The position numbers and the translations under genes are program-made. The notes beneath the pieces are model-generated. The model saw only the letters and a list, made by a program, of their open reading frames with translations, had not been told where the DNA came from and did no database searches. A DNA stretch of 64,000 bases from Amphibalanus amphitrite (taxonomy: Eukaryota > Arthropoda > Thecostraca > Balanomorpha > Balanidae). Shown here in pieces: positions 4,911-45,601 of the stretch. Location: positions 248,001 to 312,000 of the forward strand of contig NW_024881561.1 of assembly GCF_019059575.1 (NCBI RefSeq). The letters are read 5' to 3'. The stretch's first letter is position 1, and every line of letters begins with the position of its first letter.

Positions 4911-4917
4911 AGGATCT

Positions 4918-5220: not shown

Positions 5221-5227
5221 ACTTTTA

Positions 5228-7456: not shown

Positions 7457-8113
7457 TTAACTTAGAAATGAGCTAGAGCGGTGAAAGCATCAGATTTGTT
7501 CAGCTCGACAATACAGATTGACTGATATGCAACATGACCCTTTCTGGTCAAGTCATGACCTTGATCTGAGGTCAGATTTTCAAAATGACCTTTCAAGGTC
7601 AATTTATAGTTCATTGGATGTGTCTCAACAAGAGGAACACAATGCTGGCAAAAGTAATGTGGTGGCCCCCTTGAGTCAAAACACAAAAGCTATTACCGGA
7701 AACTTTTCCATGAAAAAGGCTCTTTTTAGAGCTATTGCCCTCTGAAGGCTAAATCGTTGACCTGAGGTCAAATCTGAGCACATGTTGCCGAAAGAGTGTT
7801 GGAAGAGCTATGGAATGCGCTTTTCCGCGGCGCTGTAGCTCCATTGCAGTGGTCGGCAGGTCTTTCGGGGTCGTACCACCTTTATGGGCACCAGGCAGGG
7901 CCATTGCCCCCACCTACCAGACCCCATTGCTGACACAATGACCAAGTTTACTGAAACTCCAAACCTGACCGTAACTCTTGTTTTTCTGCATTTCCAATGC
8001 ATCAAATTAAAAGATGACAGGTCTTTCACAAAACATCGCATGTATCAATTTAATTATCGTACATGTTGGGGCAGCAGGTGCTAGCGTAAATAACTCGCGT
8101 AAAAGCGCGGATC

Positions 8114-21505: not shown

Positions 21506-24500
21506 ATGAGCAAGGCGCATCCTCCGGAACTGAAAAAGTGAGTAAGAATTTCAGGACAAATTCAGTTTGAGTTGGGGAAACTACGAGGCGAGGATCCAAA
21601 AATTGATTGGTCAATCAATAGACTTGATTACCATATATGGACATAAATGCAGCCCTTGCTACTACGGGTGAAAAACGGTATAATGTACCGGTACTTGCGA
21701 TATCGTGTCCACTTATTGCAGAGAAAAGGCTTCCATTTTCCACTAGGAATTAACGCGACTTGAGTAAATTCGACAAATTAACTCAGAAATGGAGGCAGTA
21801 AAACAGCTATTCTGCAGGTTCGGGGCATCACAATCAGCTGGCCATTCCATAAATGGATTGGTATTTTGAAAGAAAATTGTTATAAGATTTATTACAATAA
21901 ATAAAGATGTAATTTTAAAATAATAATTAAAGCACAGTTGGAAAAATCATATGCAAAACAATAAAAATAATGACATTTAAAAGCCATGGAAGTGGTTACA
22001 TGTTTTAGTGCGCAGGTATGTTTCAATCCACCATATTTGCCAATCACTTTTTGACCTTGTATTGTATTTCTGGGGTTTCAGTAGGCGGAACTATGGTCAA
22101 GCGTACCCATTTTCGGGAACGCATTTTCGTTCCCATGTTTGGGAACGATAAACCCAAATATGGGAACGCCATGTAGGCATTATTTAAAACAAGAAAAAGA
22201 ACCGTTAGATGACATCCAAAAAATATAAAACGATCGTGAACTGCCTGATATTTGTCTCAATATTGTTGGGAAAGAGTTTGATATTGTAAGGCCCATCGTA
22301 GTTTCAAATCCTTCCCCTATTTCTAAAGCAGTCCATCATCCGGGCCGCGAGCCCAAATTTGGGAACGCTCTCGTACACTGGCGCTGCAAGCGTTCCTTAT
22401 TATGGGAACGGCGTACCCAAAATTGGGAACGATTTCACTGACGCCTTTCAGGGGCTCTTTTCATTAACAAGCATCACGTCCAACGCCGCAAATTATTGTT
22501 AACGCAACAATCATCAGATGACCTTTCCGGCAAGACCGTTGCATGTTTCGCCGAGTCTTCTGCGCTCGTATTCCCGTCGATCCCGCAGGGGGCACGCCCC
22601 CCTCTGCAGGATTACGTAATTCACAACGCTCGGCGATGCTCAACAAGGTCTTCCATACCTATATCCACCGTCCGCGCCGAGGGTGGAGACATGTCAAGCA
22701 CCTGTCTGTTTATCACCGATAGTTGACGAGCACAAGGAAGTATCCAAAAATGGGAACGCTGAATATGTTACACCCTCAAAACACCTAGTCCCAATGAAAA
22801 TCTAGTTTTTTTCTTTCTTAATGAGTGTAAGTGGCAAAAGGCCTGGTACGATGGGCACGAGGAATGATCGAAATCAGCATAAAAATTATAAATAAGCCAC
22901 ACAGAGCGACCTATATAAGAGAAATTCCCCCAAAACGATCATGCTTAGAAACACGGAAGACAAAAACCACGCTCATGACGTTCCTTATAAAACAACGCTA
23001 AACAGCTAGAATCCAAATAAAATATGTCTTTCCGGGCTGATAAAATACAGCTGAATAATTTTAAACCACTGAAACTGAGTTTACAACAGTAGTTCGGTAA
23101 ATTCACTCACGTTCCACGCGGTTATGCACCCCGACACCAAAAGTCAACAATATTACCTCGGGACCGTCCGCGTGTTTGCTTGCGTATGTCAGCATCTGGT
23201 GTCGCTAGAATGAAACTTCATAACCAGGCGAAAATTATTATACTTGACCTCAAAATGTAAAAAACACCTCATTTTCCTTAAAATTGCATGTTAAATGTAG
23301 TATAAGCCATGTTTACACCGTTCTGTCATTTTCAAAAAATCATTAAAAATATCATTCGACGGTCAATTTTCTTGTTCAACGGTCAGATTAAAGATAATTT
23401 TATAGAGACTTAGTAGATACTTAAATTAGCGTGCACTTTTTTGAGACGTGATGCACTAATGAGTTTTAGTGGGCGAACGGCCGGAAAATTACCTTCCGTT
23501 CTCATAAATGGGAACGCCCGTTCGCATATTTGGGAACTCCGTTCCCAAAAATGGGAACGTTCCTATATTTGGGTACTCATGACCATAGTTCCACCTACTG
23601 GTTTAGAGCCGCCAGTGCATCGTGCACTGAGTGAGTATAGCCCTTGTGTGGTTAAAAACATTCTTATGCCTTATTTTTTCATTTAAATGCTAGGATGCAT
23701 GGAAAAGATTAAGCTTTCTGATTTTATGACTATATATGATCATCGCCCCACCCACTCCAGCTGTTGATAGGCTTATCAAATTTTAGTTGGGCGCCTCACA
23801 GTTTCCCCAACTGAATTGAGCTGGAGCTGGTCCTGGTGCACTAGCAGGGTTCAGGGTAAGTAGCTTCCTTTGTTCTGCCATTGGTGTTATCTTGATGTAA
23901 ATGAGCTTCTTCTTCTTCTTCTTTACCAGCTTAGTCCGGATCCCGTGGGACCCGACCTGTCTCCACCAGGTAGTCCACTAGGAGGTCAGCATCGGTGAAT
24001 ACCTCTCCCAACGTCGGCAGGGGCGCCATCGGCGGGTCCGAGGCCCCTGGTGTGCGGGGCAGCCCAGCACCAGGTGTGGGGCCGAATCTGGCTCGCCGCA
24101 GTCGACGCACGCGTCGGACTCAGCCAGTCGGTGTCGGGTGTCGCCAGTCAAAGGCGAACATCCCACCCGGAGCTGCGCCACTGTTATCGACGCTCGGCGG
24201 TCCAGTCTGTCGAGTCCGGGCCGGGATACGGGTGGCTGTGCCTGGCGCGCGCATCACACATCGCCCGCGCCCGACGGGCCACTGCGGCTCTCGCCGACCA
24301 CAGGTCTACGGGGATCTGGTCCTGTCTTCGCGAGCTCCCGATCGCTGCCAGACGGTCCGCCTCCTCGTTTTCCGGCAGGCCCGCGTGGCCGGGCACTCAC
24401 TGTAAGTGGAGCCTGCGGCCCGATCAGGTGATTGTATCCAGCAGGTCCCTGATCTCCGCTACCAGAGCCGACTGGGAGTCCGCCGTGTCTTTCAGCGACT

Positions 24501-27500
24501 GGATGGCCGCGCGCGAGTCGCAGCAGAGGAGGAGCATGCTCGACCGGTCAGGCAGGTCACCCGCGACCTCGGCCAGCGCCCCGCGAATGGCCATGTCAAT
24601 GAGCTCCTGCGTCGGCCCTTGAACAGTGAGGACAGGTGCTTCACAAAGCTCCTCCTGGGTGAACACGGAGCCAAAGAAGTCGTTCAGGATCGTGGCCTTG
24701 GCGTCGCCTCTGCTCTCCAGCGTCACGGTCTCCGGCGTTCCAGAGTTCCGGAGGTCATCCAGAGTCGGCTTTGTCTTCAGTGTGGAGTTCGTGTACCGCC
24801 AAAAACTCCTGGGATTCTTCAATAGATTCGCTGCCAGCTGGGATTCGAAACTTTTACGCAGTCTCCTGGTGAGCAGAGCTGCGGAGTCGGAGTTGGTCAA
24901 AGTCGACAGTTCTGACTGGGGTCGGAGTCGGAGTCGATTTTGCGAACCGGAGCCGGAGTTGGTTGTTGGTGGCAGTTCCTGCTCCTGGAACCAACCGCCA
25001 CAGTAGGTCACGACAGAAAAAAGGAAACCAAAGAAGAAAACAAAATGAGACGCAGAAACCGTGACCGACGGTGCGGCCTCCCCGCCACGTCCACGTCGTC
25101 ACGCGCGGCTGTTCCCCTCCCTCCCGCGTCGCTCCCTGCACTCCCCTTGCAGTTTGCACCTCCTCCGCCCGAGCAGCCTGGCGAGTGCTGTCTGGATCTG
25201 GATGGGAATATGAACCTGGGGCAGGGGTACTTGCTCTCCTCCGACCTCCTGATACAGCATCAGTGGCAGCAGCACTGCGCTCAACAGCCTCTTTAGCAGA
25301 TTTGGTCCCAATTCTGACAACCCTTCCCCTTCGGATGGTGAGACACGTCTCTACAGCTGCTTTGCGGGCAGCGAGCTCTTTCCTCACTGCGTGGGTTGCC
25401 TCTCGTTCGGCTCTTGTTAGGTCAGGGGTGACGTATGTTTCCCCATCTTTCAGAACCACGCGGCAGTGTGGCCATGCAGATTTCGTGCTTCACCCCAGGC
25501 GTTTTGAGTGTCACTCTCGTCTCGAGACGTCTCGATCAGAAGCCTATGTCTGCTTGGCACTGATTTTCATTGCAACTTTTCATAGGTATATATGTTACAG
25601 GCAATGTGTGGAATCAGGCATTCTATAGAATGCCTAGGCATTCTATAGAATGCCTGACCGACCAGGCATTCTATAGAATGCCTAGGAAACACTATTCTTT
25701 CCAACATATTAGTGTATGTTGTATAAGATTATGAGCACAGACCGATGTGTAGCATTATTATTTTCTGCCAGGCTACCTTGCGGTCAGCTGTTTATGTTCA
25801 TTCAGTCAAATGTTCATTCAGTCATTCATGTTCATTCAGTCAAATTTTCCGGTCAGGTATTCAATCTAACCTTATTAGGTCAAATTGTATCAGGATTTCA
25901 TTCTGAGAGTACAGAGTTATTTATCTTCAAGCTAGAAAGACGATGGTGGTAATGTCAATATCGGAGACGCCTTTGGTAAAAAATTACACAGAAAAAAGTT
26001 TGACAAATCGTCCATTTTTGGTGGTGTTTGCTTTCTAAGGAATTGATTACGAGCGAGCGAGCACAGCGAGCGAAGCGAAGTCTTTTCAATATAACGGAAA
26101 AATCTCAGTATGAGCGGCCCGGCCCGGCCCGGCCTGTAACGCTTTTGAGAGGCTTATATCTCAGCAACCGCTGGACCGATTGGCCTGCGGTCTTTTTTGT
26201 TGGGTAGCCCCATCCCTTCTACCCCGTAATTGACTACTTTTGATACATCTCAGTGATCGTCGTGGCACGTGCCACGTGAAAAGTCAAGGGTGTTCAAGCT
26301 GTTTTGCAGAAGTAATGATTTTGAGAGGCTCATATCTCAGCAGCCGCTAGGGCGATTGTCTTGCGGTAGTTTTTGTAGGGTAGCTGCATCCCTTCTACCA
26401 AAAATAGGATGCTCTCGATGCATGTGGGTCACCCTAAGTGCACGTGCAAAATACAACAATAAGAGGTGTCAAATTTGTTCCCATTTTAATAACTCGGTAA
26501 TTACTTGGGCGATTTCGCTGAAACTTGGCATTTAGGTAGGCACCCACCAGGCAATGCATTCCCATGTGTTGCAGTTAGGGTGCTACTGCACGTGCGCACG
26601 TGCAGGGGGCGTTTCCAGATCTCGAGAACGGCTGGGCCGATTGTGCTCAAATTTGGTACACGGCTGGGGACCGGTTAGTAGGGTGCCGTGCAAAAGTCAG
26701 TTTGGACCCCGTTTGCACGTGCGCACGTGCAGAATGCCGCTTCCAGATCTCAGGAACGGCTGGGCCGAATGCGTTCAAATTTGGCACACCGCTAGCAACC
26801 GTTTAGAAGGGTGCTTTGCACAAGCCCGTTGGAAATACCCTCTCGCCCTTCCGCACGTGCAGGGCTCACTATCTCGCTCGCTCGTTCTTCGCCCAAAAGG
26901 CGTTTTACTGCTTTCTAACATCCGAACAAAGCCATCGTCATTCGCAATCACTTTCGATTCAAGCCTACGTTCCGCCCTCCCAGCCAACACTCTTCTAATG
27001 CAGCTTCGTATCTGTAGCAGCATAATCCTCCGAGGGTAACCGTTTAAGCGACTGGTTGGCCTGTGGCTCTCCCGCGTGCCTTGCGCCGTGGCTCTCCCGT
27101 GCCAACGGGATTGGATCAGTTGCTGCTTGCGGCGCACCGATTGGGTGGTCGGCATAGCCCAATTTCTCCCTCGCTTCCTCTCAACTCATTGCCCTGAAAT
27201 GGTGTGAGGTGACGACCGGCCTAGGCCAACAAAGAAAATTAGGTTAACAAATAGCATTACTGCCACTGACCTCTAATTTTCGAAGTGTGTTTCGGACAAT
27301 CAAAAAACTTAGGCATAGGCATTCTATAGAATGCCTGGGAGCTTAAGCCAGGCATTCTATAGAATGCCTAAGCAGTCAGGGATTCTATAGAATACCTAGG
27401 GATTCTATAGAATGCCTGGTCGGTCAGGCATTCTATAGAATGCCTAGGCATTCTATAGAATGCCTGATTCCACACATTGCCTGTAACATATACATTTACA

Positions 27501-30500
27501 CCAGTCATTACACTGGTTACGATGATTAGTTACAATGAGCCTAAAAAGCGCTTGCCAACATTTTACTGTGTCTCCCATTGGCTATGGTGATAGTCAAGGT
27601 CAGGTGAACGTCAGTTCTCAGGCTTTTGGTGACCTTTGCTGACTTTTAGTTGAATCACTTTTTAGAGTAATTTTAGAGAACAATGCTTGCATAAATATGG
27701 TTGGATTGATATTGGTGTCAATGGCTAAAGGCATACCAAGGTAAAGGTTTCATTGAAACATGTCGAGAGCGATCGCAAATGTCGTGAGATGGCATCTATC
27801 AACCCTTCTCTGCCTATCGGGCTTGATTTTAGCCGTATATGCCTACCGGAGTGATAACCGACTTGTTCTTCTTTTTCAGGTTTATGGACAAACACATGAC
27901 ATGTGAGTATGCAGATAGCATGTTGGGAAATTGTGGATGACCTGCACCAGTGTATGTGTAAATACAGAGTTTGGGTAAATGTAGTTTTTTTACAGAACGG
28001 TGCAACTTTGATGCGAATCCGCCATTTATTTTTAAACAAATGATCAAAACATGGTGTAGCTGAGCCGTATTCACCGAGCCGTATTCAATTTCGAAGGTTA
28101 AAGCTCTGGGTGAAGTGGTATTTCAGAAAGTGGTATTGGTTCTTGGTGACTGGACATTGTGACAAATACCAGTCCAGGTGAATTTCACCTCTCCCCGTGT
28201 GTCTCTGTGCAGTGAAGCTGAACGGCGGCCGCCAAATCGAGGGGGTGCTCCGCGGCTTTGACCCGTTCATGAACCTCGTGCTGGACGAGAGCCTCGAGGT
28301 CTCAAAGAGTGGCCAGCGCTCCAAGATTGGCATGGTGGTGAGTGGATTCGGACCGTCCTCACAAAACATGGGATTTTTGAAATTGGCATTGCTTGGAATA
28401 GGACACATACACACTATTTGTCAGCTGTATAACAGTCATTGCGTGATTTTAAACGCAGATCTCCCTCTCACGGTCACATTTTGTCTGCGCCGTGTCGATT
28501 TGCTCTCGCACGCCCTCGCCCCGTAGGCACGCCCCGCCCCGCTCCGTCGCCCCGTTTGGTTTGGTGGTGTGTGGCTTCTCGGCGCGTTATTACTGGGCGG
28601 GCTGACCCAGTGCCGTTGGTGCGTAGTTAGCCCAGTGTCGGTGGTGTGTAGTTACCCCAATGTAGGTGGTGTGTTGTCAGTTACCCGAGTGTAGGTGGTG
28701 TGTAGTTACCCCACTGTCAGTGGTGTGTAGTCAGTTACCCCAGTGTCGGTGGTGTGTAGTTACCCCAGTGCCGGTGGTGTGTAGTTACCCCAGTGTCAGT
28801 GGCGCGTAGTTACTTCAGTGCCGGTGGTGTATAGTTTCCCCCAGTGCCGGTGGTGTATTGTTACCCCAGTGTCAGTGGTGTGTAGTCAGTTACCCCAGTG
28901 TCGGTGGTGTGTAGTTACCCCAGTGCCGGTGGTGTGTAGTTACCCCTTGTGTGAACTGTGAAGTAACTACACACCACCGGCACTGGGGTAAGTTAGAGTC
29001 AGTGGTGTGAAGTTAGAGTTACCGGCCCAGTGCCAGTGATGGGGCATTCCACGATAGATCGTACCACTTTTTTCCAATTTTACACCCTCATCTCTCGGAA
29101 TTTGATGATAATTGGTCCCAGGGGTAATCAGGGGCTCTGAATCCACCTGTAACAATTTCAGGCTTATCAGACAAGTATTTTTTAGTTATGGTGTATGACA
29201 TTTTTTGGATCTTGCTTTGCAGCGGTAAGTTTGGCGGGCTGTAACTCTAAGACGGATTATTGAAATGCCAAATGTTATATAACATTGAACTTGCAATGAA
29301 ATGGAGATAAATATGTATTTTTGAAATTTTGAAAAATACGCTATTTATGATATATGACATATCGAGTTTTCTTTCATTTGTATTTTTTGGACCTTGGGAC
29401 CAAATTTTTGGAATTTTTATTTCTTTAAAAAAATATTTGGTCCATTGTGAAGAAGTATGCAAAAAAATTAGGAAGGTGTTCTTTCTATAAATGTTTTTAT
29501 TTTACGTCACAATAACGGTTTCGAATAGTGATTTCGGGAGGGAAGCTTACAAATGGCGTGGTAAAGCTGCCTAGTGACATCACGGGTTACTGAAATTTCA
29601 ATTGAAGTCTGAGTCATCTAAAAAAAAAATGAAAAGAGGGTTCATCCAACCCTCTTTCCTATGGATAAGCGCGAGAGTGAAAAAGGCTGTTTGGTTCTGA
29701 TATTGTTTTGGACGCCAATGACCATAGCTGTCCGAGATGAAAGTTACAGGACGCATACATGGTGTCCTCCAGAGGTCTCACAACTTGTATATCAGGGAAT
29801 TTTTTTTTAAGGTCACATGAGGTCAGGTCGGTCACGTGACATCACTGTTATAAGTCAATGGGGAAATATAAAAACTGCTATTTGGCGCCGAGAATGATCT
29901 AAAACTATCTTACGTACATGGTATCGTGATTTCATGCATTCCTTGCAAAGACCATTGCTTCACTTTTGCATTGTTAGCCTTGCGTGACGTCATTTATGAC
30001 GTCACTAGGGTCTTACGAGTTTTTTCGCCAATAACTCCCGATCAAATTGAGCTAGAGAGTCGGGAAAGTCACCAATGGACTTGGGAAGACCTTCCGAATC
30101 GAACGATATGCCATATGCTGCCCTTTGCCCAGCTTCATGGCCTGAGGGGCTCTGACCTGACCTTGACCCGAGGTCAACTACTTAAGTTGACCTCACCCTA
30201 ACAAAAAGTATACCATTCGACGCACCTGAGCTAGGCGAACACAATGATGCCAAAATCGCGGCTCTGCGGCCATTTTTTGCGAAGTTATTTACTAAAAACC
30301 GAACCCGTAACTTCAGTCACTTGACCTGACCTCAGACGCTACCGGTTAACCCTCGCCCGCACATGGGGGGGGGGGGGTGGTTGCCACCCCCCCAGGTAGT
30401 CTTTCTGCTCTGCACTCAACATTTTTAGAGCTAGAAGGCTGATTTTTCGTATAGCTGCTCCTCTATTCTTTCTTGATGTCCACTAAAAATTTCAAGTTTC

Positions 30501-33500
30501 TGTGATTTTTGGTTTCGGAGATATGACCTTGTTTTTCAGGTCATGTCATGACCCAAATGGCCAATTCTCAACATCTTGCGTTTGCCATGGGCCTTATGAG
30601 CTTTTGATACCCTGATTTCGGCCTTTTTTGCCAGTCTTACCTCCCACCTATCATGGAACATGTCGTTCGACGATGTACAGGGGTCAAGGTCAGGGTCAAG
30701 GTCAACCTAGGTCATCTAAGATAATTGCGTTCTAGGCAAGCTGAATTTACTTTTTTTGAAGTTTTTTGACTGCATTTTTGGTAAAAGCTTCTCAGATCAT
30801 GATTTCATGTAATATGGACCCAAAAACAATCGGTGCACACATCAGTATACACACAGACACACACAGACATACACACACATATAATTGACCTTGACCTAAC
30901 TTGACCTGAAATGACCTCAGCAGCAAAAATATGGTCGGGTAGTGTGACAAAGAGGTTCTAGCTGGCTTGGCACCAGAAAACAGCATCGTCATCGGTATTT
31001 GCTAAGCAGCACACTTGATATCCAACGGTGACCCAAAACAGCAACATTTTTTAGTTTGACCTGACCTGGAAGGTCAATGACTGACCTGAGAAGGTAAAAC
31101 TGGGTATCATTGGATTCGTCTCTTCCCAAAGAATCTTTTTGGTCTTTACTGCTAAGCTCTATCTCCAACAGGAGCGAATTGGCGCGGGGGGGGGGTGGCA
31201 ACCACCCCCCCCATGTGCGTTCTAGGATGGGAAAATGGCATGTGCGGGCGAGGGTTAACCTGAGACCTTAAAATCGGGTACCAATCGCTGCGACTTGTAA
31301 CGGCACACACGCTCGTTTTTTCCGCGAGGCTCTAGCTCTATTACTAGGAGGTTCAATAAATACGAGAAAATCGCTCGTATCTCCCTTAAGTGTTGTCGTG
31401 GAGCAACAATGAAAAAAGCACGTGAAACTACGAAAAATTCTCTACAAACTGGCTATTTCAGATTTTCTTTCTGGTTGTATGTTGGTGTCGTGACGAAATG
31501 GACCATGTTTTAAAGCAACGTTCAGTTATTGAATTTTACGTTAAACTCGGCGAAACATCGGCCACTGTAATCCACCGGAAACTGCGCGAAGCCTATGGCG
31601 ATGATGCACTGGCGGTATCTGCCATTTGGAAGTGGGTAAAGCGCTTCAAGCATGGAAAGCGAGGCATCCGGGACGAACCCCGACCGGGAAGACCCAAGGT
31701 ATCCGCAACACCCGAAAACCTTCAGAAACTGGATGACCTGATCAAGGCCAATCGCCGGATCCGAGTCACGGACCTGGCTGAACAGCTGGCTTGTTCGGTG
31801 GGCTCAGTGGTCAACATGGTCAGGCAGCTGGGCTACCACAAAGTCTGCGCCCGATGGGTTCCCAGAGAACTCACCCAGGAGCAAAAGCAGAATCGGCGAC
31901 GAATCTGCGAGGATCTCCTGCAAGAGTACCGGGCGGCCGGAGATCAGTTCTTCAACGGAGTCGTCACCGGGGACGAAACCTGGGCACATCACTATTGTCC
32001 GGAAACTAGGCGCCAGTCCATGGAGTGGAGACATCCCGGCTCACCCGTCTCCAGACACTTCAAGGTCGCTGCGAGTGCTGGCAAGGTCATGGTCACGGTC
32101 TTTTGGGATCGTGACGGGGTCATCCTGGTTGACTTTTTGGAGGCAGGGCAGACCGTGGACAGCAACCGCTACATCAAGACGCTACGGAAGCTGAAGAGAG
32201 CGGTGAGAGAGAAGAGACCGGAACTGGAGGTCAGCGGCATCAAGATCCACCACGACAACGCCCGTCCTCACACGTCGCGCGCCACCGTCCGCGAGATCGA
32301 GAGGCTGGGCTGGTCGGTGATGCGACAGCCGCCGTACAGCCCGGACCTGGCGCCCAGCGACTACCACCTCTTCGGGCCCATGAAGGACCATCTGCGTGGC
32401 AGACGGTACGAGGACGACGCAGCCGTGAAGTCTGCTGTGAAGGAGTGGATTCGCGGCTGCAGCCCTGACTTCTTCCGCGCCGGCTTCCTACACTGGGTGG
32501 AGCGCTGGGAAAAATGCGTGCAGCTGAACGGAGACTACGTGGAGTAGTTTGTTCAAGGGATATGTGTGATGGCAAAATACACTTCCGTGAATGTTGGAGA
32601 TAGCCATTTTGTAGAGAATTGAACGGGAATTCAAGTCGTATTTTATTTTTTGCTCTACGACAAAATTTGAGGGAGGTACGGGCGATTTTCTCGTATTTAT
32701 TGAACCTCCTAGTAGAAGCGGAACGGCGTGCTTGGGTCGTATCAACCCCTCCGAAACCCATTTTGTTTGCGGGAAAATGAGGAACTTACAGAAAGAACAC
32801 CTTTCTAATTTTTTGCATGTCGATTTGCAATGACATGAAGTTTATTTTGGAAAAATAAAAATGTGAAAAAATTTGGTCCCAAAAGTCATAAGAGGCAAAT
32901 GAAAAAAGATTAAGGTTTTTGTTCAACAATGAAAAATTTTCTTTGGAATTTTTAAAAAGTAGTATTAATTTTTGATTCATCGCAAGCTAAGTGTTGTTTA
33001 CCGTTTGTTGGTTGCTTAACCCTTTCTTGAGTTATAGGCCATCAAACTCACCGTTACAAGCCGAAGTTAGAAAATGTAATGCAATATAACTGAAAAAGTT
33101 TTGAGCTGAAAAGTCTGCCAGGCGTCTTTGGGGCCTATGATTACCCCTAGGACCGATTTTCATTAAAATCTGAGAGATGAAGGTGACGGACCTGGTACGA
33201 TCTATCGTGGAATGCCCCTGGTGTGAAGTTAGTTACCCCAGTCCAGTGTCGGTGCCGGTGGCGTGTAGTTACCCCAGTGCCGGTGGCGTGTAGTTACCCC
33301 AGTGCCGGTGGCGTGTAGTTACCCCAGTCCGGTGGTGTGCAGTTACCCCAGTGTCGGTGGTGTTTAGTCAGTTACTCCAGTCCAGTGCCGGTGGCGTGTA
33401 GTAACCCCAGTGCCGGTGCCAGTGTCGGTGGTGTGTAGTTACCCCAGTGCCGGTGGTGTGTAATTACCCCAGTGTCAGTGGTGTGTAGTCAGTTACCCCA

Positions 33501-33674: not shown

Positions 33675-33771
33675 TCGGACACCCCGCCCCCTTCGGTCGC
33701 CGCCACTCGCCGCTCGAGCGGTTCACCTTGCATCGTCACATCGTCCTGTGCCGTCTCATGTCATCATGATC

Positions 33772-33777
33772 AATAAA
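33772..33777 (+). terminator. SNRPG polyadenylation signal
   Basis: AATAAA lies 98 bases after the SNRPG stop codon and is the first canonical signal downstream of it. Confidence 0.7.
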
Positions 33778-33779
33778 CA

Positions 33780-35718
33780 GGTGTAAAGCCCTCACAACCA
33801 GCGCGTGTGATCTCCGGGGTGTGGAACGCTTCCGGAAGCAGCTGATAAAGGTGTGTTCGAGGACGGCTTTTCCATGGTGAGCCTGGAACTGCAGTGGACC
33901 GTACTATGGTAACGCAGACGCCGAAATGTCCGGTACATAGCTGATGCTGCCCGCCGGATGCCGACGATTCTCTCAGTCGCATGGTAAGGATCCAGTAAGT
34001 CGATATTTTCGTGTGAGGTCTCGTGAAAAATCCACTCATTCGCCACTGTTTTACAGCAAGTCGTAAAAACGCACGCACGTACCTACTTAGGGGCTTTTGT
34101 GTCCCGTTTCCCCGGATTCCCGGGCTGCAATGATTTTGTACAGCTCTAGCTTTAAATTATGAAAAAGGAGAATACAATCTTTAGGTACCCCAGGTTGAAC
34201 CGCGAATTGGACCATTTTCACATCCATTTCAAGGGTAAAGATTGGTCTGAAGGTAGCGTTCAGCGGCGCAGAGCGCGTCGGCTGCTGCGCCATTGTGGAA
34301 ACACTCGGACAGGGTCGCAAACGCACCTTGTACCACACTTTCCCACACTTTGCACACAATTATTTTTTAGGCTGTCAGTTGAAGTTTATGTAATTATTCT
34401 GTTACTCCTGGGATAAACGAACAAACTTTGTATCTACATGGAGTCTGGATTTCAGACGTTGCGGCGAACGCCAACCCCGATGATGACGCTAAGGATATCT
34501 AGGCGTAATTTCAGGTAGTCTGGTAAGAATCGACCATTGGGTTTTGTCTAAAATGTGTGGTTCGTGAGTAGCCAGACTTAAACATGCCAACAATACCCAA
34601 AACTAGGATTCCCATGAGGCCGGGAGCGTGACCTGAGTGACCTGAAGCCAGCTTTCCCGACAGAAACTTCGCTGGATGCGGGTATTTGTTGTCTAGAGCC
34701 CCCCCCCCTTATCGCCAGCCAAGGCAAAATAAAAAATGCTTTGCATACTTGAAGATAGGCAGCCTGACATGTTTTCACATCAGCGGTTATTTATTCGCGT
34801 TGGTGATTTGAATTTCTATTGTAAGACTAAGGAACACAAATACCAGGATCCTCCGAATAGTCTGTTGGTAAAACCGGCCTCAGTTCATATTGGGCTTTGC
34901 CAGCCTGAAGTAAGTTTGCATTAAGTCGGAAAAGTATTGAAGCATTTAGGCGTAGTGTGCCTTTAATGATACCTGAAATGATTTGCATGTAATTTTTATG
35001 CTGCTTCCACTCTGTTCACCATGCTCGCGGGAGCCTTTACCATGCAAGTTCAGTTCACCGTAGGGTAGAGCGCACGAAAATGGCCGCTGTCCGCAACGTT
35101 AGAGATCTGTGAAGGGATGAGCGTTTATTGAACATCGAATGTGGGCCCTCAGGATGGGACCGATGCTTGTTGTAATGTCTCGTCGTGGGGCCGCTTATGT
35201 CGAAGCACATATGAAATATGAAACACGCCCTACAAACATCTGCCTACTATCTACGCCAGTCTCTGCGCAATCACCCGCAGCTGAACTTGGATTCTGCCGA
35301 ACGAGCGCAAAACAATAAAAAAAGTTTCCATAAGCGATAGATGAGCACAGGTAAAAGCAACTCCTTTGGTGAACAGTAAATTACACGTCCACAACACAGC
35401 TACGAACACCGACAGACACATTCAGGCGCTCTCCCGCAAACGAAGCTCGTGGTACACAGGATGAGAGACAAGCTCACCGAGTAAGACGCTCGGTGATCGA
35501 GGGCAGAACGCGAGCGCCGGCACGCGACGCGACACCTCATGTCCATCGGAAGTCGCCGACACAGCATTTGAAACTCAGTCCGCCCGGTCAGTGAAATTGC
35601 GGCCCGCTCGGTCCGGTGGCGGGAGAGCGCAGCGACATTGGAGCGGCCGGCTCACTGGCCCCGCGCGCGGCCGGGCCGCCCGGACTCGTCAGCCCCACTC
35701 CTGGGTTCACTCGTCTCA
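33780..35718. other. Intergenic DNA between SNRPG and the AT-hook gene
   Basis: No gene recognised. TTTATT on the plus strand near 35125 could be the AATAAA signal of the minus-strand AT-hook gene. The stretch 35480-35700 is GC-rich and is probably 3' UTR of that gene. Confidence 0.4.
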
Positions 35719-36339
35719 TCACTCGGACTCGTCATCACCCGACTCGGCCTTCTTCGGGGCCTTGGCCTTCTTCGGCGGGCGGCCGCGACCGCGACCCGGG
35801 ACCTGCGGCACGGGGGAAAGGTCATCTTAGCAAAGCAGGACTTTATACTGGCTTAAATTAATCTGGTCGGGGTGACAAACCTGAAAACACTCGTTTTGAT
35901 AGAAACGGATGTGAATTGGAAAACGAGTGGACACTGGACACAGCCCTATCTCTATCATACCTTAGCCTTCTTGGCAGCTCCTCCAGCCTTGGGAGGCCTT
36001 CCACGGCCCCTCTTCTTGGGCGGTGCTGGCTCCTCGCCTCCACTCTCCCCACCAGCATCCTCCTCAGACTCAGCCGGCTTGCGTTTCTCAGCAGGTTTGG
36101 CAGCCTGTTGAGAAACCAAACATCCATGGTTATGAGGAAGCATAAGACAAGTGTATGAATGATAAAATCATGCAAACTAATGGAATTACATATCTAATAT
36201 CTTCCCAATCAACTTATGAAATAGGTAATGAAAGATGTGGTAAACATTGGATTAAAAATACCTTATCCTTGGGTGGCCTTCCCCTCTTCTTCTTCTCTAC
36301 CACAACATCATTGCCATCAGCTGCTGCATCTTCAGGCAT
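35719..36339 (-). CDS. HMGA-like chromatin protein with three AT-hooks (3 exons)
   Basis: Small nuclear architectural protein that binds the minor groove of AT-rich DNA. Coding exons are 36262-36339, 35961-36104 and 35719-35802 (78, 144 and 84 nt). All have GT-AG borders and phase-0 joins, giving 101 aa. Each exon carries one AT-hook: KKKRGRPPK (about residues 16-24), KKRGRGRPPK (56-65) and GRGRGRPPKK (77-86). The protein ends in an acidic tail, ESGDDESE. Three hooks plus an acidic tail is the HMGA architecture. Arthropod AT-hook proteins are too short and simple for firm orthology, so I leave the symbol empty. The ATG is the first base after an acceptor (TTTTCAG), so an untranslated first exon must lie upstream, beyond 36340. 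Confidence 0.85.
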
Positions 36340-36626
36340 CTGAAAACAGGAATATATTTTAAAAGGTTTTGTTAATCATTGGAGACAGCTTGATTTCTGC
36401 TGTAGTGATGACTCAACACCAGTTAACAAGTATGAATGAATATTTTTAAAATGGCATAGCTCCTTGCATGGGTATGCCACATTTTTCTATTTTACAAATA
36501 TCCTCAGTATATCTGCTTGTGAAAACTGCTGCTGCACTGATCCCTTACAAAATGCAGGCCAGCAAAATCCACTATAAACATAATAAGTAACTACCTAGTT
36601 TATGGTTACAAACTGATACAAATTCT

Positions 36627-36792
36627 GGTGGAACCTGAAAACAGGGCGCCGGAGGGCATTTTAGTCACGTGATTATTGGGATATTCTCCCAATCTTAAAG
36701 CTTTTAATCGACTATTTTTTATGTGATCAGGTCAACTGTCAAGTGAATTTCAAGATCCTTGATAAAATCACCCCAGGTTTTCAGATTCCACC
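36627..36792. mobile_element. 166-bp MITE with 8-bp duplication, copy 1
   Basis: Inverted ends GGTGGAACCTGAAAACAGGG and complement. Flanks CAAATTCT and CAAAGTCT match at 7 of 8 positions. A second copy at 57051-57205 has the same ends and the same orientation. The 8-bp duplication suggests a hAT-type helper, but the termini are not classic. Confidence 0.75.
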
Positions 36793-38637
36793 CAAAGTCT
36801 GGACTGGTGCTTCATTGTCATAGGATTCAAGACAAAAATTTTACCTTTTCACTATGTTGAGTGTATAAGAATAAATCATTTCTTTCTATGGCTCACATAG
36901 GTACCTATTTTTGGCTGTTGCCTCATTCTCTAAAGTCAACTGCGCCACCTAAAAATCAATACAAAGTGAACCCTGAACACGCTATATCAAGCATTGCATT
37001 AATTTTCCTCTGCTTACCTTGCTTGACCTTTAATTCGTTTAATACAACAGAGCGATCCGGGGCTGCCCTTTCGTTGTATTCAAGGTAAATTACCAAAAAA
37101 ATTAGGCACTGGAGCACTAAACCCCTCACGCCAAAGCCGCAAAGGAAAGGACGCCGGGAAATTGCAAGGGGTGCAGTTATTTTTTTACATCTTAGTTTTG
37201 GTTTACGCGTTTTTAGACGTTTCTCGGCGCACTGTTGTTGAAGTTATACAGGCCTATTTTACAGCTATTTTTGATTCCCAAAACTGCTGCAATTTTTAGA
37301 ACTTTTTTTTCGCATATTGACATTTTGATGGAATTGGAATGCATTATGAATGCCAATATAATAACAATGTGAATCGAGCCACGCTCATAGCGAAATATCA
37401 CGAATCAATGATAATAACAGTAACCGGCAGAAAATATGTAGTTACCGCGATTGTATAATACTATATGTTCCGCGTGAAATTGACAGGAGATACCACAAGA
37501 ATAATAGCCTGAAATGATATTGAAATAACTGAAAGCTCATAATACCCGCTTAGCACTGCTAACGCTGACCATTTTCTTCGAACATTAAATGCTTATCATA
37601 CCATAACATCTGAAGATAATGAACTTGAACCTCGAAAAGCGAGTTGTCCAGTTTCAGTCTCAGTTTGTGCGGTACTGGGATACATTCATTATCAGTGAAT
37701 CAAATAAAAATTGGCCGGGGCATCATGCTGTGATTATATGAACCAGTTAATATGTATAAAATCTAGATATTGGCCAAACGCAACGGCCACGGACCGTAGG
37801 TTGACGACCCCGAAATTTATAGGTTCAAGCAATTTAAATAATGCTGGTGCGTGGAGTTGAATAGTGATGTAAATGTGGCCACAGTCTACAAACACGATAA
37901 CAAATATCGATTGCGCTTCGCTCAACCAGAGCCATGCTCGTTCTTGCTCATGAAGCAGTGCATCCCTATAAAATGAAAAATCTGAACGAATGCATTCAGG
38001 TTCCTACCTCTGAATCACCTTATATTGAGATCCGTTTCTTAACAGGAACACAAACGCGGCCCGTCAATTCGTCAGTACTAAGGCAACAGCGTCTGACAAG
38101 TGACAACGCATCAAATGGCCAACTTCTGACACTATCTACCAATACGGTAACGGCAATAAAATTGCATTGCAAAATGCAAATAAAATTGCACGATTTCCAA
38201 GCGCAGCTTGAAACCAAATCCGACCAGCTAGTGTCATTTTCACAACCAAGTGCGACCAGTTAGTGTCTCGAGACACATTCCAACTGCATAGGTACCGCAG
38301 TAACCCATTAGGGGCGAAAGGAAACACATGACTTGTGTACGACCAGCGTTCTGTCAGCGTACGACGCATAAAGCAAACTGCTCAAACAACTGCGGTCCCG
38401 AACAACACAACACAGAGCTCCGAAACGAATGGTTTACAAAAGTCTACGACTGACGACATCGAAACAGTACGTTCATCGGGACTAGTCACATGACTCGCTC
38501 AGCCCAGCTGGGTTAGGAGTACTAATTGCGCTTCAAATCGACCTCTGGGCTCTGACAGCCATTTACTTACGCTAGTTTGATGCATAAAACTGTACATTGA
38601 AACTCAAGTAGCAGCACATAGGTCTCCATCAAGGTGG
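36793..38637. other. Upstream region of the AT-hook gene
   Basis: AT-rich, without recognisable domains. The untranslated first exon and promoter of the AT-hook gene should lie here or beyond, but I cannot point to them. The chance frame at 37934-38263 has no domain. Confidence 0.35.
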
Positions 38638-38960
38638 TTATATACAACAGAGCACCTCGCTAAAACGAGCGCGAGCCGCACTGTCACGCTGACAGTTAAC
38701 ACTGAGCCGCGAGTCGTGACAGTTGCACTGCGTCATATGCACGCAGATGTCGCACTCACGGCACCGTTGCTGGCACTGCGCTGCGGGTGGACACGCGCGG
38801 TGCAGTAGCTCCACGGTGTGCGGCTCACCGGAGGGATTACCAGTCTCCGACCAGACAGTCCAGGCGGGAAATGCGGTGTCTTCAATCATGACCGCCGTCC
38901 CCGTCTCCGCGGAGTGCCGCACGGCGGCGACGCGGCGGCGTCGGATCTTGAGCTGGTGGA
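38638..38960 (-). pseudogene. SWIM-zinc-finger-like cysteine-rich fragment
   Basis: The frame reads IRRRRVAAVRHSAETGTAV, then WTVWSETG, then a cysteine cluster CQQRCRECDICVHMTQCNCH followed by DSRLSVNC. The CxxC-xxCxH-xxxCxC-(x)n-C spacing resembles SWIM fingers in arthropod transposon-derived proteins. The final C-x-H pair is replaced by CQRD, so metal binding is doubtful. No complete gene, start or terminal repeats were found. It may be a decayed transposon-derived gene or an exon of a host gene. Confidence 0.35.
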
Positions 38961-40341
38961 CACTTGGACTCCTGCCAGAGCTACCAGCTTCAGCCCTTCA
39001 GCATCCTGTCATCAGCAAACTCCAGCAGAGCTCCAATGCAACTGGGAAAATAAAATTTATGCTGTTAAGCTATATCATGCAAAACATTTCCTTGCACAGG
39101 ATTCTCTTGTGCAGTTCAGCAAAATATTCTGTGATATCCATGGCCATGACAAGAGGACTTGATGCCATTGTAAAAAAAATATAGGTTCATTGGTTCTCAT
39201 TTACCAAAATCGAGCTTCTATAGGTACAGCCCAACGCTAAAGTAATGTAGGGTTTACCAATCTCAACGGTTGGTTTTGACTGGCGATTGTTTAATGCGGA
39301 GTGATCGAAAAGAATATGTCAATAGCTTAAGTTGCAGCTGCAAGGGTGACGATACATATAAGCTACATTCAAAGTTTCATTGTAGTCTGGCTAATCGTTC
39401 CTAAGCTTCAGAAGCAGAGCATACCCATGACTGAAACCCCACATTACTTCTGCTGTGGACTGTACCATTCATTTGTATATCATGAAGTATGTTAACTACA
39501 CAATTTTTATGCAATAGACATTAGACTGACATAAAATATGTAGGAATGGCAAGAGAGATGGGTAAATAAGCCAAATAGGTTGCAGGATTTATTGGCACCA
39601 AACAGGTCAGAAAGTAGTTCAAACAATCTTACAAACTACACCAGAGCAAGTCTTTGAATTAGGTACAAAATTATGCCACAGAAATAAAAACAATGCAGTT
39701 TTGCAGAGCATTTCCCAAAAGATAATTGTGATTCAGCCTTGCTCCCATTCTGAGATTGAATAAATACAAATTATGAGGTGAAAGTTACTAAAAAGCAGGT
39801 TTTTTTTTTTAGAAAACAGCTTCAATCCATCTTTGCTTGATTTGAAACTCAAGGCAACATCTCAGCTTTGACAGCATGAAATAACACCAAATCAGCCAAC
39901 CTTGTATCTTTATCTGGTGAAACTCAAGAAACCAATAAAGCAAACAATTTCTGAGCAAAACATTTAGGTATTTGACAAGCTCAAGCACCACCCACTGGAG
40001 CGGTATGATGGGGTCTCGTAACTTGAACGTTCAGTCTGTAAGAGCATGCCTGACTTGGCTTAACGGTTTTGAGGCATCACAAAGACCTTTTTCTTTGCAG
40101 CAGCTCCTCCTATTCTTTTTTAACATAAACTTAAACTATCATTACCATCCCATGATGATGAGGTGGCTGGTTTCGGGAGCTGGAGCATGAAATGTAGCAG
40201 CCCTTCTTTCATTCTATTTCCTTGTTTTCACATGCTGCACAAAATGTTTTTTCTTCCACGTTCCTTCTGTCATTGTAAAAAATAATAGGTATCATAATTG
40301 CTTCACTTCTTCTCTATATTCCAAGTATTGCCGCTGCAATT
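38961..40341. other. Gene-free stretch
   Basis: AT-rich DNA with no recognisable exon. It ends with the AATT target duplication (40338-40341) of the next element. Confidence 0.4.
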
Positions 40342-43300
40342 CAGTCGGTGACACACCAGGGAAATAAGCTAAAATTAGAGCGCTCTATTTATTGCTCCCG
40401 CTACTTCACCGTCTCCCATAGGGTCCTGTGTTGAGCTGGTGTCGAGGCTCTAAAAATGACGCCGATTTTTGCACCCTTCTCACGAAAACCGCTCGGACCT
40501 CCTGGAAACTAATTGTTCCGCTCTAAAAATTTCATGATCGACGGGAAAATGAATGAGGAAAAGATTGGTCCTGAAATAATTCTGAACTCCCTGTAGAACA
40601 TATCGAAATATGGCTGCAAACTAGGAGCATGTCAAAATCGACAAAACGATACAAATAAACTTACCGGGATTTTTTTATTTTCCATGCATCTGTGTATGAA
40701 ATCAGTCGGTTTTTCGGAAAGATAATCTTCTGTTTAATAAATAATTCCACAATTGCAATCGAGAAAAAAAAACATTTCTGCTGTGACGGCAGTTTTGGCA
40801 TTGTGCCAGTAGTGTGGCGTGCGCGGTGCTGCGTGGTCGTCGGGACGGAGTTGTGAGTATTTTCGGTGTTTTAAATGGTTGATGGCCATTTGAACCAGCT
40901 TTATATTATTTCCTACAAATTTTTGCATCAAATTACTGCTTTGAAAGACCATTGAAACCCCTTATCTCTTCATGAAACACGATCATATTTATCGTCGACG
41001 AAAATGGCGCGGGACCCCATGTGCGTTCAGATCGAAATAAATCTTAAATTAAATAATATTCGATGATAAGTATCATATTCTAGTGACACATTTTCATAAA
41101 ATAAGGCATAAACTTTGCAAGGAAGTCAACATTGGATGATTGGATTCTTATTTTGCTCACATATCCTTGTGTAGTCAAATGACTCAATTGTTAGATATAT
41201 GTAAGCATATGTTTTGGCTTGATGTTTGCTGTGAAACCACCCAGCCACTTGCTGGTTGAGTGGTTTTTGATAATAACCTGATAATCATTTCTCCTTTTCC
41301 TTAAAAGAAACTAAAATTCTTTTCAAAGTAATCCATTTTAGGAAAGGCGGCTTGCTCATTGACATTTCATGTTCTTGTTTTGTTATTGCTGGCAGTATTT
41401 TGATACAATAATGCAATATGAATTTTTTGCAATAATAAAACCTAAGACAAACCTAGTTAATGCGTCAATCAAACACCCAACAGAAAGATTGTGAGTCCTT
41501 GTGACGTGAAGTAGAACACTTTATGAATGTGTTATATAGAATATGCCAAATTTTAAATTAATTATACTGATAGCTGAGCATGTGAATTATGCCACAATAT
41601 AATTTCATTTTCTGGTTTTGAAATAGCGGGCAGTATTTTACTTCAACAAATGTAATATACATGGAATACATGTTGTTATGTTATGTTAAAAGTTTAATAA
41701 CAGCAAACAGAAGGGGCTGTTTCAGCAGATAATGTTTGTACCTTATGCATTACCTTTCTTTTCTGCAGGACCATGCTTCCGCTGGGTGGTCGACATTTGC
41801 CTCCTGAAGAAGTTGAGCAACATGAAGACCACCATATGAGGTGTCTGCACTCTGCAGTTCATGTGGAACTCTGCAGACTGCAAGTGTTATGCCAACCACA
41901 ACCAAAGTGCTGTGATCATGGAGGCATGAACCTCATGACAACACTTCAGATTTGCAGTTGTACCAAAGTGTGATTCAAACCACCTGTGGCATCTCACTCA
42001 ATGTGTGAACAGTGTGATCATTGTGCAGTGTTCAGCTGCAACTAAGACATTTATTAGTGACTTGTTTTGCAATTAGCCACCAAAAGCATTTTTGGGCTGG
42101 CTGCTGTAATTTGTTGTGCACTGCGCAATAGTGGTAGTGTTTTGTCACTTGTCAAGTTGTCAGTTGTGCATGTTGCATGTTTCTCTTCCCTCGGCCCTCA
42201 TTATCAGTTAAGTGGTGAATTGGCATCACTCAGTCTCCCCAGATCTCCATTGACTGTCTGTCAACCACCTAACTTGAGATGGTATTTGCTAACAGTGTCA
42301 GAAAATAAGTGATTGTAGACATTTTTAGGAATATGAGCTCCGTTTCATGCGTGTTGCGGTGGTCATTTTGTCACTTGTCCCATAGTGTAATAAATGGAAA
42401 CTGCTGTTCCCTTTTCAAGGTACTCGCGGATGCAGAAAGCGTTGGGCCTAATTATTAAACGCACCCTTCTATCAGCGACGCACGAAATCGACAAATAGGT
42501 ATCATCCTTTTTAGAGCAGGAGGAAACGAAAACTTGTGAACATAGCTGTACCTACAACAGTGCATAAGGAATTGGAATTCTGGGAGTTTTTGAAATTCGG
42601 AGAAACTCAAGTTGTCGACAGGTATGCCCCCTTGTACGTCAAAGACCGCCTAAAAAACAAACGTCTACAAATGAAGGCAGTATTCGTAAGTTCGTTGTAA
42701 TTGCAGCAGCCTAGCAACATGCATTGCGGTCCGATGGCGAATTACACTCGTGCTAAAAAAAAACTATGCCGGTAACTGCCAACGTACTTAGGTCGTAGGT
42801 GAGGAGAGGAAGGGTTATGTCAAATGTCAACATCAAAGAAATGGCTTCATCTGAGCTGTGCCTATTGTACATAATTCAACCAATCTATGCATTTCGTTTC
42901 TTGCTAGCTACTCATGCTTTCACTCCTGCTTCAGAGTAATCATCCCATATTGTACGTCTTAAGATATTGATTTCTATGGCAGTTCGCAATTGCTAGCCAC
43001 GTCTCACCTCAGTTTGGTGGCCCCGCATCGGCCCACTCGGCCGCTCTAAAATTGACGTACGGAGGAGGATGGTGGCTTTTATTTTAGCTTCTCCGCTGAC
43101 TGCGGGGAGCGCCGTCGCCGAGGTAGGAGCAATAATTAGCTTAAGTTTGGGACTAATTTCCACGCTTAATTAACATTTTAATGTTATTTTAATTAATTCA
43201 TGTTAATCTTTGACGCATTCTCTTTCTATTGATACCATCCACCGGCCTGAGAAGTACTGCCTTGCTGCGTAAGGGCCGATAAAAGATCACGCTTTTAGGG

Positions 43301-43378
43301 GTATCTCTTCAACATGGGGCAGGAGCAATAAATAGAGCACTCTAATTTTAGCTTATTTCCCTGGTATGTCACCAACTG
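40342..43378. mobile_element. 3.0-kb DNA transposon, CAGT(C/T)GG ends, AATT duplication
   Basis: AATT (40338-40341 and 43379-43382) flanks inverted termini of about 70 bp with a few mismatches. They start CAGTCGGTGACACACCAGGG on the left and CAGTTGGTGACATACCAGGG on the complement of the right. Inside, TCTAAAA.TGACG and TAGAGC.CTCTA motifs recur near both ends. The longest internal frame (41773-41973) follows an acceptor-like TTTTCTGCAG but has no domain I know. It may be a non-autonomous derivative. It shares the 4-bp duplication and CAGT termini with 22079-23600 and 44291-45224. Confidence 0.82.
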
Positions 43379-43382
43379 AATT

Positions 43383-44286
43383 CATCTCATCTCCCGTAAG
43401 TGAACCATTGCCCTATGGCCGCTAAAGTAAATAAGTGGAATGCGCCAGAAATTGTCAAAATCGCGCCAAAATAGCAAACTAAGATGAGAAGAAATAACCG
43501 CACCCATTGCAAGGCGTCCCTCCAAACGTGGCTGCCAGGCAATAAGCGGTATAATTGCTTAAAAAATCCTTTATGTGACGAATTCCTACGAAAAAGAAAC
43601 ATCAGAGCCATTTCCTATTTTTGGTGGAAAAATATAAGAAAATAAATTTTTTAAAGTACGCTGTTTGAAACCTTATATGTGAGGAAAAATTGGTATTTTT
43701 TGTTTTTCTAGTATAACGACTAGTTTTGAACTAGCTCTTTTCTAGTATACAAAAGGCATTTAAAGCATTGAGCATGGTTTTGGAAGCTAACTTTCGTACC
43801 TTAGTTATATTTTCGGGTAAAACCATTTATTCATCATATATTATGCTCATTGATCGGAAAGGGAGAACGATTGAAAAAAATAGATGTAGACATGTAGTAG
43901 ACTCTGCTTACCAGATTTGACAAACCCTGCGCTTGTGAGACAAAATACGGTAGATTTTGGCTGCCGAAAGACAAATGTGTGATTTTTGTGTTTTTATTTG
44001 CTTTGGCTTAGGATAGAAACTGATTGAACAATTTTCATGTTTTGCTAGCATGTTACACTCGCTTTTGTACCTTCTATGTTTTTTTTAGCATTTGATCCGA
44101 ATAATGAAGAGATAGGTTAGTTTTTTTAGGCTTGGTAGGTAGGTACCTAATTGACATGGATGGTGAATTTTGCAGCTTGAGGTAGGTACCGTGCCTGTTT
44201 ACCTGCACGGAATTTTAGAGAGGCTAATGGCTATTGACTAGCTTGCTTTTGTTTTTAATACGACTCAGACTATGGGTGAAAATGAT
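43383..44286. other. Gene-free stretch between two transposons
   Basis: AT-rich, no recognisable coding or RNA feature. Confidence 0.4.
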
Positions 44287-44290
44287 ATGT

Positions 44291-45224
44291 CAGTTGGGCA
44301 AACTAGACTTTTGGAATCAAAATATGGAGGCATCAATAATTTGATTCTGGTGGGAGGAGCCATGACCAAATATGGGCATGGAATCAATTTTTTGATTCAT
44401 TTGGGTACACTTTTGACTTCAAATGAATCGTTACGGTTGAAAAAAGGCCCATGACGGTGAGATTTTTCTTTTAAAAGGTAGAAAAATGTGGTAGGTTTGC
44501 AAAAAGTGTTACCTCAAAGCTAAGAAATTGTCCCTTTGGCCTTGTGAATGGGAAAAAGACAGAGCCACTGTCCATCACGTAAAAGCTGTTTTGAGGAAAT
44601 CCCACTGTATGTTATTTTTGTATCATGAATCACATACTAACCAATCAGTATTTGTGTAAAATGGCAAAATGAAATTTTTAAACCCCTAATTATCATTGTT
44701 GTAGTGCTTTTATATTATTTATATGGTTTTTACCTGTTGCTTCAGTTTTTGTATCCTTGACATTTAAAAATTGTGAATTGTTATCAAATGTAGTGAAGGT
44801 AAAGTACAACAATGCTATAGGTATCAGTTGTGGTGCTGAGGATACCACTAAATGAGAATAATAGCAAGATAAATGCTGTATTCTTGCAAGTCATTGTTGC
44901 CTATCTGTTAACATTACCTGTGAATCAAAATAATGATTAGCCAGCTGATGGGGAATCAATATTATGATTATCTGTTAAAAGTGAATCAATTCCTTGATTG
45001 CCTTTCACTACCTATAGAATTCAAATTGTTATGATAGGAGCAATATTATTTTGCTTAGGAGATAGTTCAAGCATTTCTGTTCAAGATCAGGCATGCTCCT
45101 TCTTGAAACACTCTCTTATTTTTATGTGATTGGTAAGTTAGAAATGGTCTGCATTTATGCCCAAAAGGAATCAATCTTTTGATGCCTCCATATTTTGATT
45201 CCAAAGGTCTAGTTTGCCCAACTG
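44291..45224. mobile_element. 934-bp DNA transposon, CAGTTGGGC ends, ATGT duplication
   Basis: ATGT (44287-44290 and 45225-45228) flanks inverted ends of about 45 bp starting CAGTTGGGCAAACTAGAC. No ORF of note. The interior carries a series of palindromes of the form GAATCAAt...tTGATTC, at about 44381, 44953, 44983 and 45168, plus single GAATCAA copies. These are candidate transposase or host-factor sites. Confidence 0.82.
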
Positions 45225-45601
45225 ATGTTGGTGATTGATAAAATTATGTCTTGCCAAGTGACATTTCAGCAGGCATGAAGTTTCATATCTTTGTACTATG
45301 CTTTCAATTCAACTGTCATTATGATTAATTTTAGCTTTATTAAATTAAATACCTTTAATTCAAGGTTGTGTCTTATCCGTAAACACTTATTAGTAGTTGG
45401 TATATATTTGCAATGTTTGCGGGCAAATACCATTTAATTGAACCAGTTCACATCCGAAATCACAATTGACTTGTTCAGCAATTGTAATAAAACCTAATAA
45501 ATCTTGTTAATAGGGGCTTGCTTGCTTCCAGGTATATGGCATATTTCTGATCTGATGATGTTACCTGCAGTCAGCTATCCAGCACACTGAAGTAATAAAG
45601 C

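Follow-up and report, generated by a model that had tools for sequence, protein, structure and literature searches.

Three transposable elements, here called A, B and C, lie in a 64,000-nucleotide stretch of the genome of Amphibalanus amphitrite (C64:248001-312000; hereafter the window), and they represent real, young and recently amplified non-autonomous families. Each carries CAGTNGG tips and is flanked by a target duplication of 4 base pairs (bp). We read A, B and C as cut-and-paste families that are mobilised in trans by related transposases, with Sola as the best-fitting described superfamily, and we give this reading a probability of about 0.45, somewhat under an even chance. The genome searched comprised 807.55 Mb in 2644 contigs.

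Three families with 4-bp target duplications

The three elements stand in the window where a preliminary description of this DNA had placed them, with the tips and the 4-bp flanks that it gave (Table 1). Element A has the tip CAGTAGG and the ends CAGTAGGCGGAACTATGGTC and CAGTAGGTGGAACTATGGTC, and its end arms, about 90 bp long, are about 75% identical to each other. Element B has the tips CAGTCGG and CAGTTGG on 60-bp end arms (40342-40401 and 43319-43378) that are 93% alike in the window copy. Element C, with the tip CAGTTGG, has 57-bp end arms (44291-44347 and 45168-45224) that are likewise 93% alike.

We scanned the window for inverted pairs of less than 7 kb that start with CAGT and are flanked by a 4-bp duplication, using 60 approximate dinucleotide shuffles as the control. 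When ends of 18 bp with at most 3 mismatches were required, the scan returned exactly A, B and C in the window and nothing in the 60 shuffles. When ends of 12 bp with at most 2 mismatches were required, four CAGT pairs were found in the window, against a shuffle mean of 0.08 and a maximum of 2; the fourth pair, 5088-8144, looks like a chance match. At this 12-bp setting several start words were commoner in the window than CAGT, namely GAAT (13 pairs), CGCC (7), CACT (5) and GCGG (5). The scan of the window for other duplication lengths (2, 3 and 5-9) yielded a single CAGT pair, at 11909-14393, with an 8-bp duplication. Since this pair is CAGT-ended and has a duplication of another length, CAGT alone defines no group.

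The claim that the elements duplicate exactly 4 bp was then held against genomic copies, and it stood. An exact 4-bp duplication flanked all 8 fetched copies of A, which occupy 8 different targets, as well as 28 of the 30 fetched copies of B and 18 of the 20 fetched copies of C. The exceptions in B are L053, which has no duplication, and L058, which has no right end; one of the 28 copies, L038, lies inside a TC repeat, where the length of the duplication is unreadable. The exceptions in C are L013, without a duplication, and L028, which reads as 4 bp given a mutated first base. A CAGT match at L013:1501-3072, with 2 mismatches, spans the C copy. Another CAGT match, at L051:5023-5558 in the flank of a fetched copy, has AGCT as its apparent duplication; it was rejected by eye, as its inverted arms run outward past these bases.

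The joined flanks of the 54 copies with an exact duplication were searched against the retrieved sequence, and matches of L038 in TC repeats were not counted. Empty sites were found for 5 of the 54 insertions, one of A (L003) and four of B (L040, L057, L035 and L054), and in each the junction showed neither gain nor loss of a base. The same four bases were present once at four of the five sites, and the site of L057 reads GTTT where the insertion reads GTAT. The empty site of L054 carries a 6-base difference 16 bases off the junction. In L040 (C74:487781-493807) the B copy is inserted in a copy of A, and the sequence is uninterrupted in all eight A copies retrieved; this B therefore moved once that A was in place. 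Inverted ends, a duplication of fixed length and clean empty sites (one for A, four for B), which together mark cut-and-paste transposition, are all found in these families.

The targets were analysed over 53 distinct insertions, after the C copy L011, whose flank is common to another copy, had been dropped. The form ANNT was found at 29 of the 53 targets, whereas its background frequency in the flanks is 0.079 (joint p of about 1e-18). By family, ANNT accounted for 6 of 8 distinct insertions of A, 12 of 28 of B and 11 of 17 of C. A fixed length together with a palindromic target is the trace left by the 4-bp staggered cut of a DDE/D transposase, and the duplications of A, B and C would be the product of such a cut.

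Genome searches, in which 40 of 1132 candidates were scored for A, 40 of 408 for B and 40 of 596 for C, showed that near-identical copies of each element are numerous. Counted by pattern over the genome, the two ends numbered 682 and 680 for A (control 1 and 2), 277 and 282 for B (control 0 and 2) and 378 and 378 for C (control 8 and 9), which corresponds to roughly 680, 280 and 380 copies, provided that both ends have been kept. End pairs were listed from the first 100 places per pattern, which extend to contig C29 for A, C140 for B and C137 for C. Among the pairs listed, the standard length within 45 bp was found in 30 of 47 for A, 30 of 46 for B and 27 of 40 for C. The 40 C pairs include two sizes, 934 bp (8 pairs) and 944 bp (15 pairs); the 20 fetched C copies all measure 933-935 bp. 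The mean divergence from the consensus was 1.5% for A (8 copies), 0.73% for B (30 copies) and 0.70% for C (20 copies). These values are lower limits, and the true ages may be greater, because the copies fetched were those most similar to the one in the window.

Table 1. Positions in the window of the three elements and their target duplications
Feature	Position	Strand	Basis
Left target duplication of A (GTTT)	22075..22078	.	sequence
Element A, 1522 bp, non-autonomous	22079..23600	+	sequence and 8 copies fetched
Right target duplication of A (GTTT)	23601..23604	.	sequence
Left target duplication of B (AATT)	40338..40341	.	sequence
Element B, 3037 bp, non-autonomous	40342..43378	+	sequence and 30 copies fetched
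Right target duplication of B (AATT)	43379..43382	.	sequence
Left target duplication of C (ATGT)	44287..44290	.	sequence
Element C, 934 bp, non-autonomous	44291..45224	+	sequence and 20 copies fetched
Right target duplication of C (ATGT)	45225..45228	.	sequence

Element interiors and the search for a transposase

The interiors of A, B and C are unrelated, as had been proposed. The best match between consensus sequences of different families had an E value of 0.05 in blastn and of 0.03, over 22 residues, in tblastx, and neither is convincing. The longest stop-to-stop frames in the consensus sequences are 165 amino acids for A, 83 for B and 65 for C. The 18 consensus frames of at least 60 amino acids gave no Pfam transposase match in the 7 that were scanned, and two weak, unrelated matches fell below the cut-off. 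As no transposase was recognised in these frames of A, B and C, the enzyme must come from elsewhere.

Each element was also said to have its own reiterated internal motif, and the consensus sequences, searched on both strands, bear this out. In A the motif CGTTCCCA occurs 11 times, and the variant pair CGTTCCCA/TGGGAACG is reiterated. The motif GGAATCAA occurs 5 times in C, and B has two motifs, AGCAATAA with 5 occurrences and AGAGCGCT with 4. These family-specific repeats are putative binding sites for the moving enzyme.

In the mechanism that we propose, a DDE/D transposase encoded at another place in the genome, in a separate element, would move each family in trans, recognising the CAGTNGG tip together with the family's own repeated motif. 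The transposase would excise the element and insert it by a cut staggered by 4 bp at an ANNT target, and gap repair at the staggered cut would leave the 4-bp duplication. Related transposases of one superfamily would account for the common tip, stagger and target preference, and the repeated motifs would carry the specificity of each family.

The preliminary description had placed an autonomous member elsewhere in the genome. The lack of a recognised transposase in the scanned frames of the three elements agrees with this idea, but the end pairs listed contained no such partner. The pairs of non-standard length numbered 17 for A, 16 for B and 13 for C, and no exact non-standard length recurs among them. 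The nearest to recurrence are two C pairs with lengths of 14649 and 14850 and four B pairs with lengths of 5973-6695. A 6.4-kb span between B ends on contig C47 proved to be a B copy with other DNA interrupting it near an end, and it was rejected as the autonomous partner. Of a 5.0-kb span between A ends on contig C5, 900 bases were read, and they contained no long frame.

We also searched the genome with protein-family profiles. The nuclease domain XPG_I may be taken to belong with AcademX and DUF6589 with Academ, and DUF7869, DUF6589 and PF20700 (Mutator) were chosen as putative transposase candidates. XPG_I gave 7 matches at 6 places in 807 Mb, including two pairs of matches with almost the same score, a pattern expected of host genes. 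DUF7869 gave 13 matches and PF20700 gave 7, and DUF6589 gave none in this genome and none in the control genomes either. Dimer_Tnp_hAT gave at least 94 matches with 150 of 554 candidates scored, so that hAT elements are abundant in the genome. The contigs covered by the A listing hold no XPG_I and no DUF7869 match, 2 Mutator matches and 12 hAT matches; those covered by the B listing, and equally those covered by the C listing, hold 2, 4, 2 and 31, respectively. On these contigs no XPG_I, DUF7869, Mutator or hAT match fell inside any end pair listed, which is a weak negative because the listings reach only the contigs named above.

Some of the DUF7869 matches resemble a small mobile element. 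Four copies (C1203:60906, C1408:57508, C235:201271 and C2379:34949) are in agreement at distances of 500 and 1000 bp from the domain, and at 1600 bp they are all different; the pair on C1203 and C1408 is already different at 1100 bp. On the other side of the domain this pair agrees at 800 bp and differs at 1600 bp.

Sola as a possible assignment, and the alternatives

Our comparison with the literature was aimed mainly at the rules that define superfamilies. That A, B and C have tip, stagger and target preference in common is suggestive of one group. According to the Repbase rule, non-autonomous elements belong to one superfamily if their duplications are equally long and bases 1-11 differ at no more than 1 position (PMC4455052). 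All three families agree in the first respect, each with 4 bp.

Sola elements have 4-bp duplications, and both their ends and the lengths of their end arms are very variable (PMC10741241), so CAGT ends are no argument against Sola. In Dictyostelium fasciculatum the Sola2-type elements have AWWT duplications (PMC3627910), and this AT-rich target resembles the ANNT of A, B and C. The preliminary description had held that the known superfamilies with 4-bp duplications are not obviously CAGT-ended. On the published rules Chapaev and Ginger are excluded by their ends, and the very variable ends of Sola are compatible with CAGT. The most economical reading places all three families, as non-autonomous members, in a superfamily that is already described, with Sola as the first choice. 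The assignment to Sola itself (Sola1 or Sola2) is tentative, and we consider it less probable than the wider reading. An autonomous Sola partner would encode a Sola-type DDD transposase.

Several observations weigh against this reading. The only two features behind the Sola assignment are the duplication length and the target, and 4 bp is also within the ranges given for PHIS, MuDR/IS256 and IS481EU (PMC10045372). Sola2-type AWWT was found at only 11 of the 53 targets, and the observed form is the looser ANNT. The ANNT preference of B is weaker than that of A and C (12 of 28 against 17 of 25), a difference that is not significant (Fisher p = 0.10). Bases 1-11 hold 3 or 4 mismatches in every one of the 12 cross-family end pairs, more than the Repbase rule allows. 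For C, the joined flanks yielded no empty site in the retrieved sequence. Finally, among the end pairs listed, with two interiors sampled, there was no long element that combines ends of these three types with a transposase frame.

The preliminary description had suggested that this may be an undescribed or under-described group. Such a superfamily or deep lineage would be defined by CAGTNGG tips, 4-bp ANNT duplications and family-specific motifs, and its transposase would be absent from protein-family libraries. We consider this unlikely. Three families with equal tip, stagger and target preference, and with no transposase recognised in the 7 of 18 frames scanned, are what it would lead one to expect, but an enzyme that has simply not been found need not be a new one. 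Moreover, a described superfamily, Sola, already combines duplications of 4 bp with ends that vary greatly (PMC10741241). The searches linked no transposase to A, B or C, and the 3 or 4 mismatches under the Repbase rule lend a single new group no support.

Convergence would mean that A, B and C come from two or three superfamilies and that their 4-bp duplications and CAG tips coincide by chance. Every family pair exceeds the mismatches that the Repbase rule permits, the first 20 bases of the three families share only CAGT.GG....AC, the families were picked by their tip, and B has the weaker ANNT preference. These points make convergence worth weighing, but tip, stagger and target form are identical in three of three families, and we judge it quite unlikely.

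CACTA-type elements also carry repeated subterminal motifs, which speaks for a CMCT lineage (the clade of EnSpm-Mirage-Chapaev-Transib relatives) whose ends have CAG in place of CAC. In this clade most lineages end in CA..TG, and the duplications are 2-5 bp long (PMC12730594); A, B and C fall within these bounds. A transposase of this clade would carry C(2)C and H(3-4)H motifs. Their ends read CAG...CTG in all three families, however, and a CMCT origin seems to us as doubtful as convergence. Chapaev itself can be set aside. It shares CA..TG ends with A, B and C, and 4 bp lies within its 3-4 bp duplications, but its ends are invariably CAC..GTG (PMC4079192), and A, B and C differ from it in the third base, with 5'-CAG...CTG-3'.

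Other superfamilies were rejected in the same way. Ginger1 and Ginger2 share 4-bp (4-5, 4-6) duplications with A, B and C (PMC10045372, PMC10741241), but their ends are TG..CA (PMC10741241). The targets of piggyBac and Kolobok are reported as TTAA (PMC5199201; PMC9587614), a target found at 0 of the 53 insertions. Though the duplication of piggyBac is also 4 bp, its ends are CC..GG (PMC10045372) and not CA..TG. Duplications of 3-5 bp occur in the KolobokP lineage, but the ends of Kolobok elements, KolobokP included, are RR..YY (PMC9587614), which again do not match the CA..TG of A, B and C.

AcademX transposons are an improbable source. Their duplications are 3 or 4 bp (PMC10045372), a range that takes in the 4 bp of A, B and C, and those of Academ are 3 bp (PMC5199201). 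By the Pfam model, however, this genome holds no amplified XPG nuclease gene. The 7 XPG_I matches at 6 places look like host genes, and none lies inside an end pair listed, where the B and C listings cover the contigs of 2 of the 7 and the A listing covers those of none. DUF6589, without a match here or in the control genomes, adds little, and the XPG_I model may miss AcademX nucleases that have diverged too far.

Another described group with 4 bp in its range is more improbable still. The duplications of PHIS (Harbinger/ISL2EU relatives) are absent or 1-4 bp long, those of MuDR/IS256 are 4-10 bp, and those of IS481EU are about 4 bp among other lengths (PMC10045372). A fixed 4 bp in three families would be unusual for such ranges. 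For IS481EU, the same source gives TNT/TGT ends and reports from parabasalids only (PMC10045372). For MuDR, none of the 7 PF20700 matches lies inside an end pair listed, 2 of them being on covered contigs.

It is common for hAT elements to have CAG tips and repeated subterminal motifs, and hAT is abundant in this genome by the profile search described above. hAT elements with unusually short duplications are nevertheless hardly credible as the source of A, B and C, as hAT duplications are reported to be 5-8 bp long (PMC12730594) and not 4 bp, and as the hAT matches on covered contigs that lie inside an end pair listed number 0 of 12 (A), 0 of 31 (B) and 0 of 31 (C).

Other mobile elements in the window and value of the families

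A 207-bp miniature inverted-repeat transposable element at 7070-7276, flanked by GATC and GATG, had been put forward as a possible fourth CAGT element. Its 44-nucleotide inverted arms are real, but we read 10 copies out of 39 other scored places, and GATC/GATG and its surroundings recur in all 10, with one base different in 9. Because all of these copies have the same flanks, GATC/GATG is part of a larger repeat and not a duplication, and the element was rejected as a fourth member. The palindrome is nested in a longer inverted pair (6895-6923 and 7440-7468), which could be a TTAA-flanked element at 6907-7456.

The window holds further mobile elements. A mariner element at 31348-32708 has long inverted ends and a frame of 373 amino acids (31426-32547, + strand) with matches to Transposase_1, HTH_48 and DDE_3. 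A long interspersed nuclear element at 1956-4931 (- strand) has an open frame of 991 amino acids that contains endonuclease and reverse transcriptase domains. The CAGT pair at 11909-14393, which has CAGTGTCCTGAAAT-type ends and the exact 8-bp duplication TATACAGA, is probably a non-autonomous hAT element. TTAA-flanked elements with inverted ends lie at 13063-13540 and 30350-31254, with ends AGGG.. (Kolobok-like) and CCCTCG.. (piggyBac-like), respectively. An inverted pair at 25593-27488 has CTATAGAATGCCTAGGCATT-type units repeated at each end.

At present, the value of A, B and C lies mainly in three well-bounded families for a repeat library. All three are young and number hundreds of copies each, and they also offer a way to approach a transposase, active now or until recently, that duplicates 4 bp. 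If that enzyme is new, it would add one more superfamily; if it is a Sola transposase, CAGTNGG and ANNT would give terminal and target rules to a group with variable ends.

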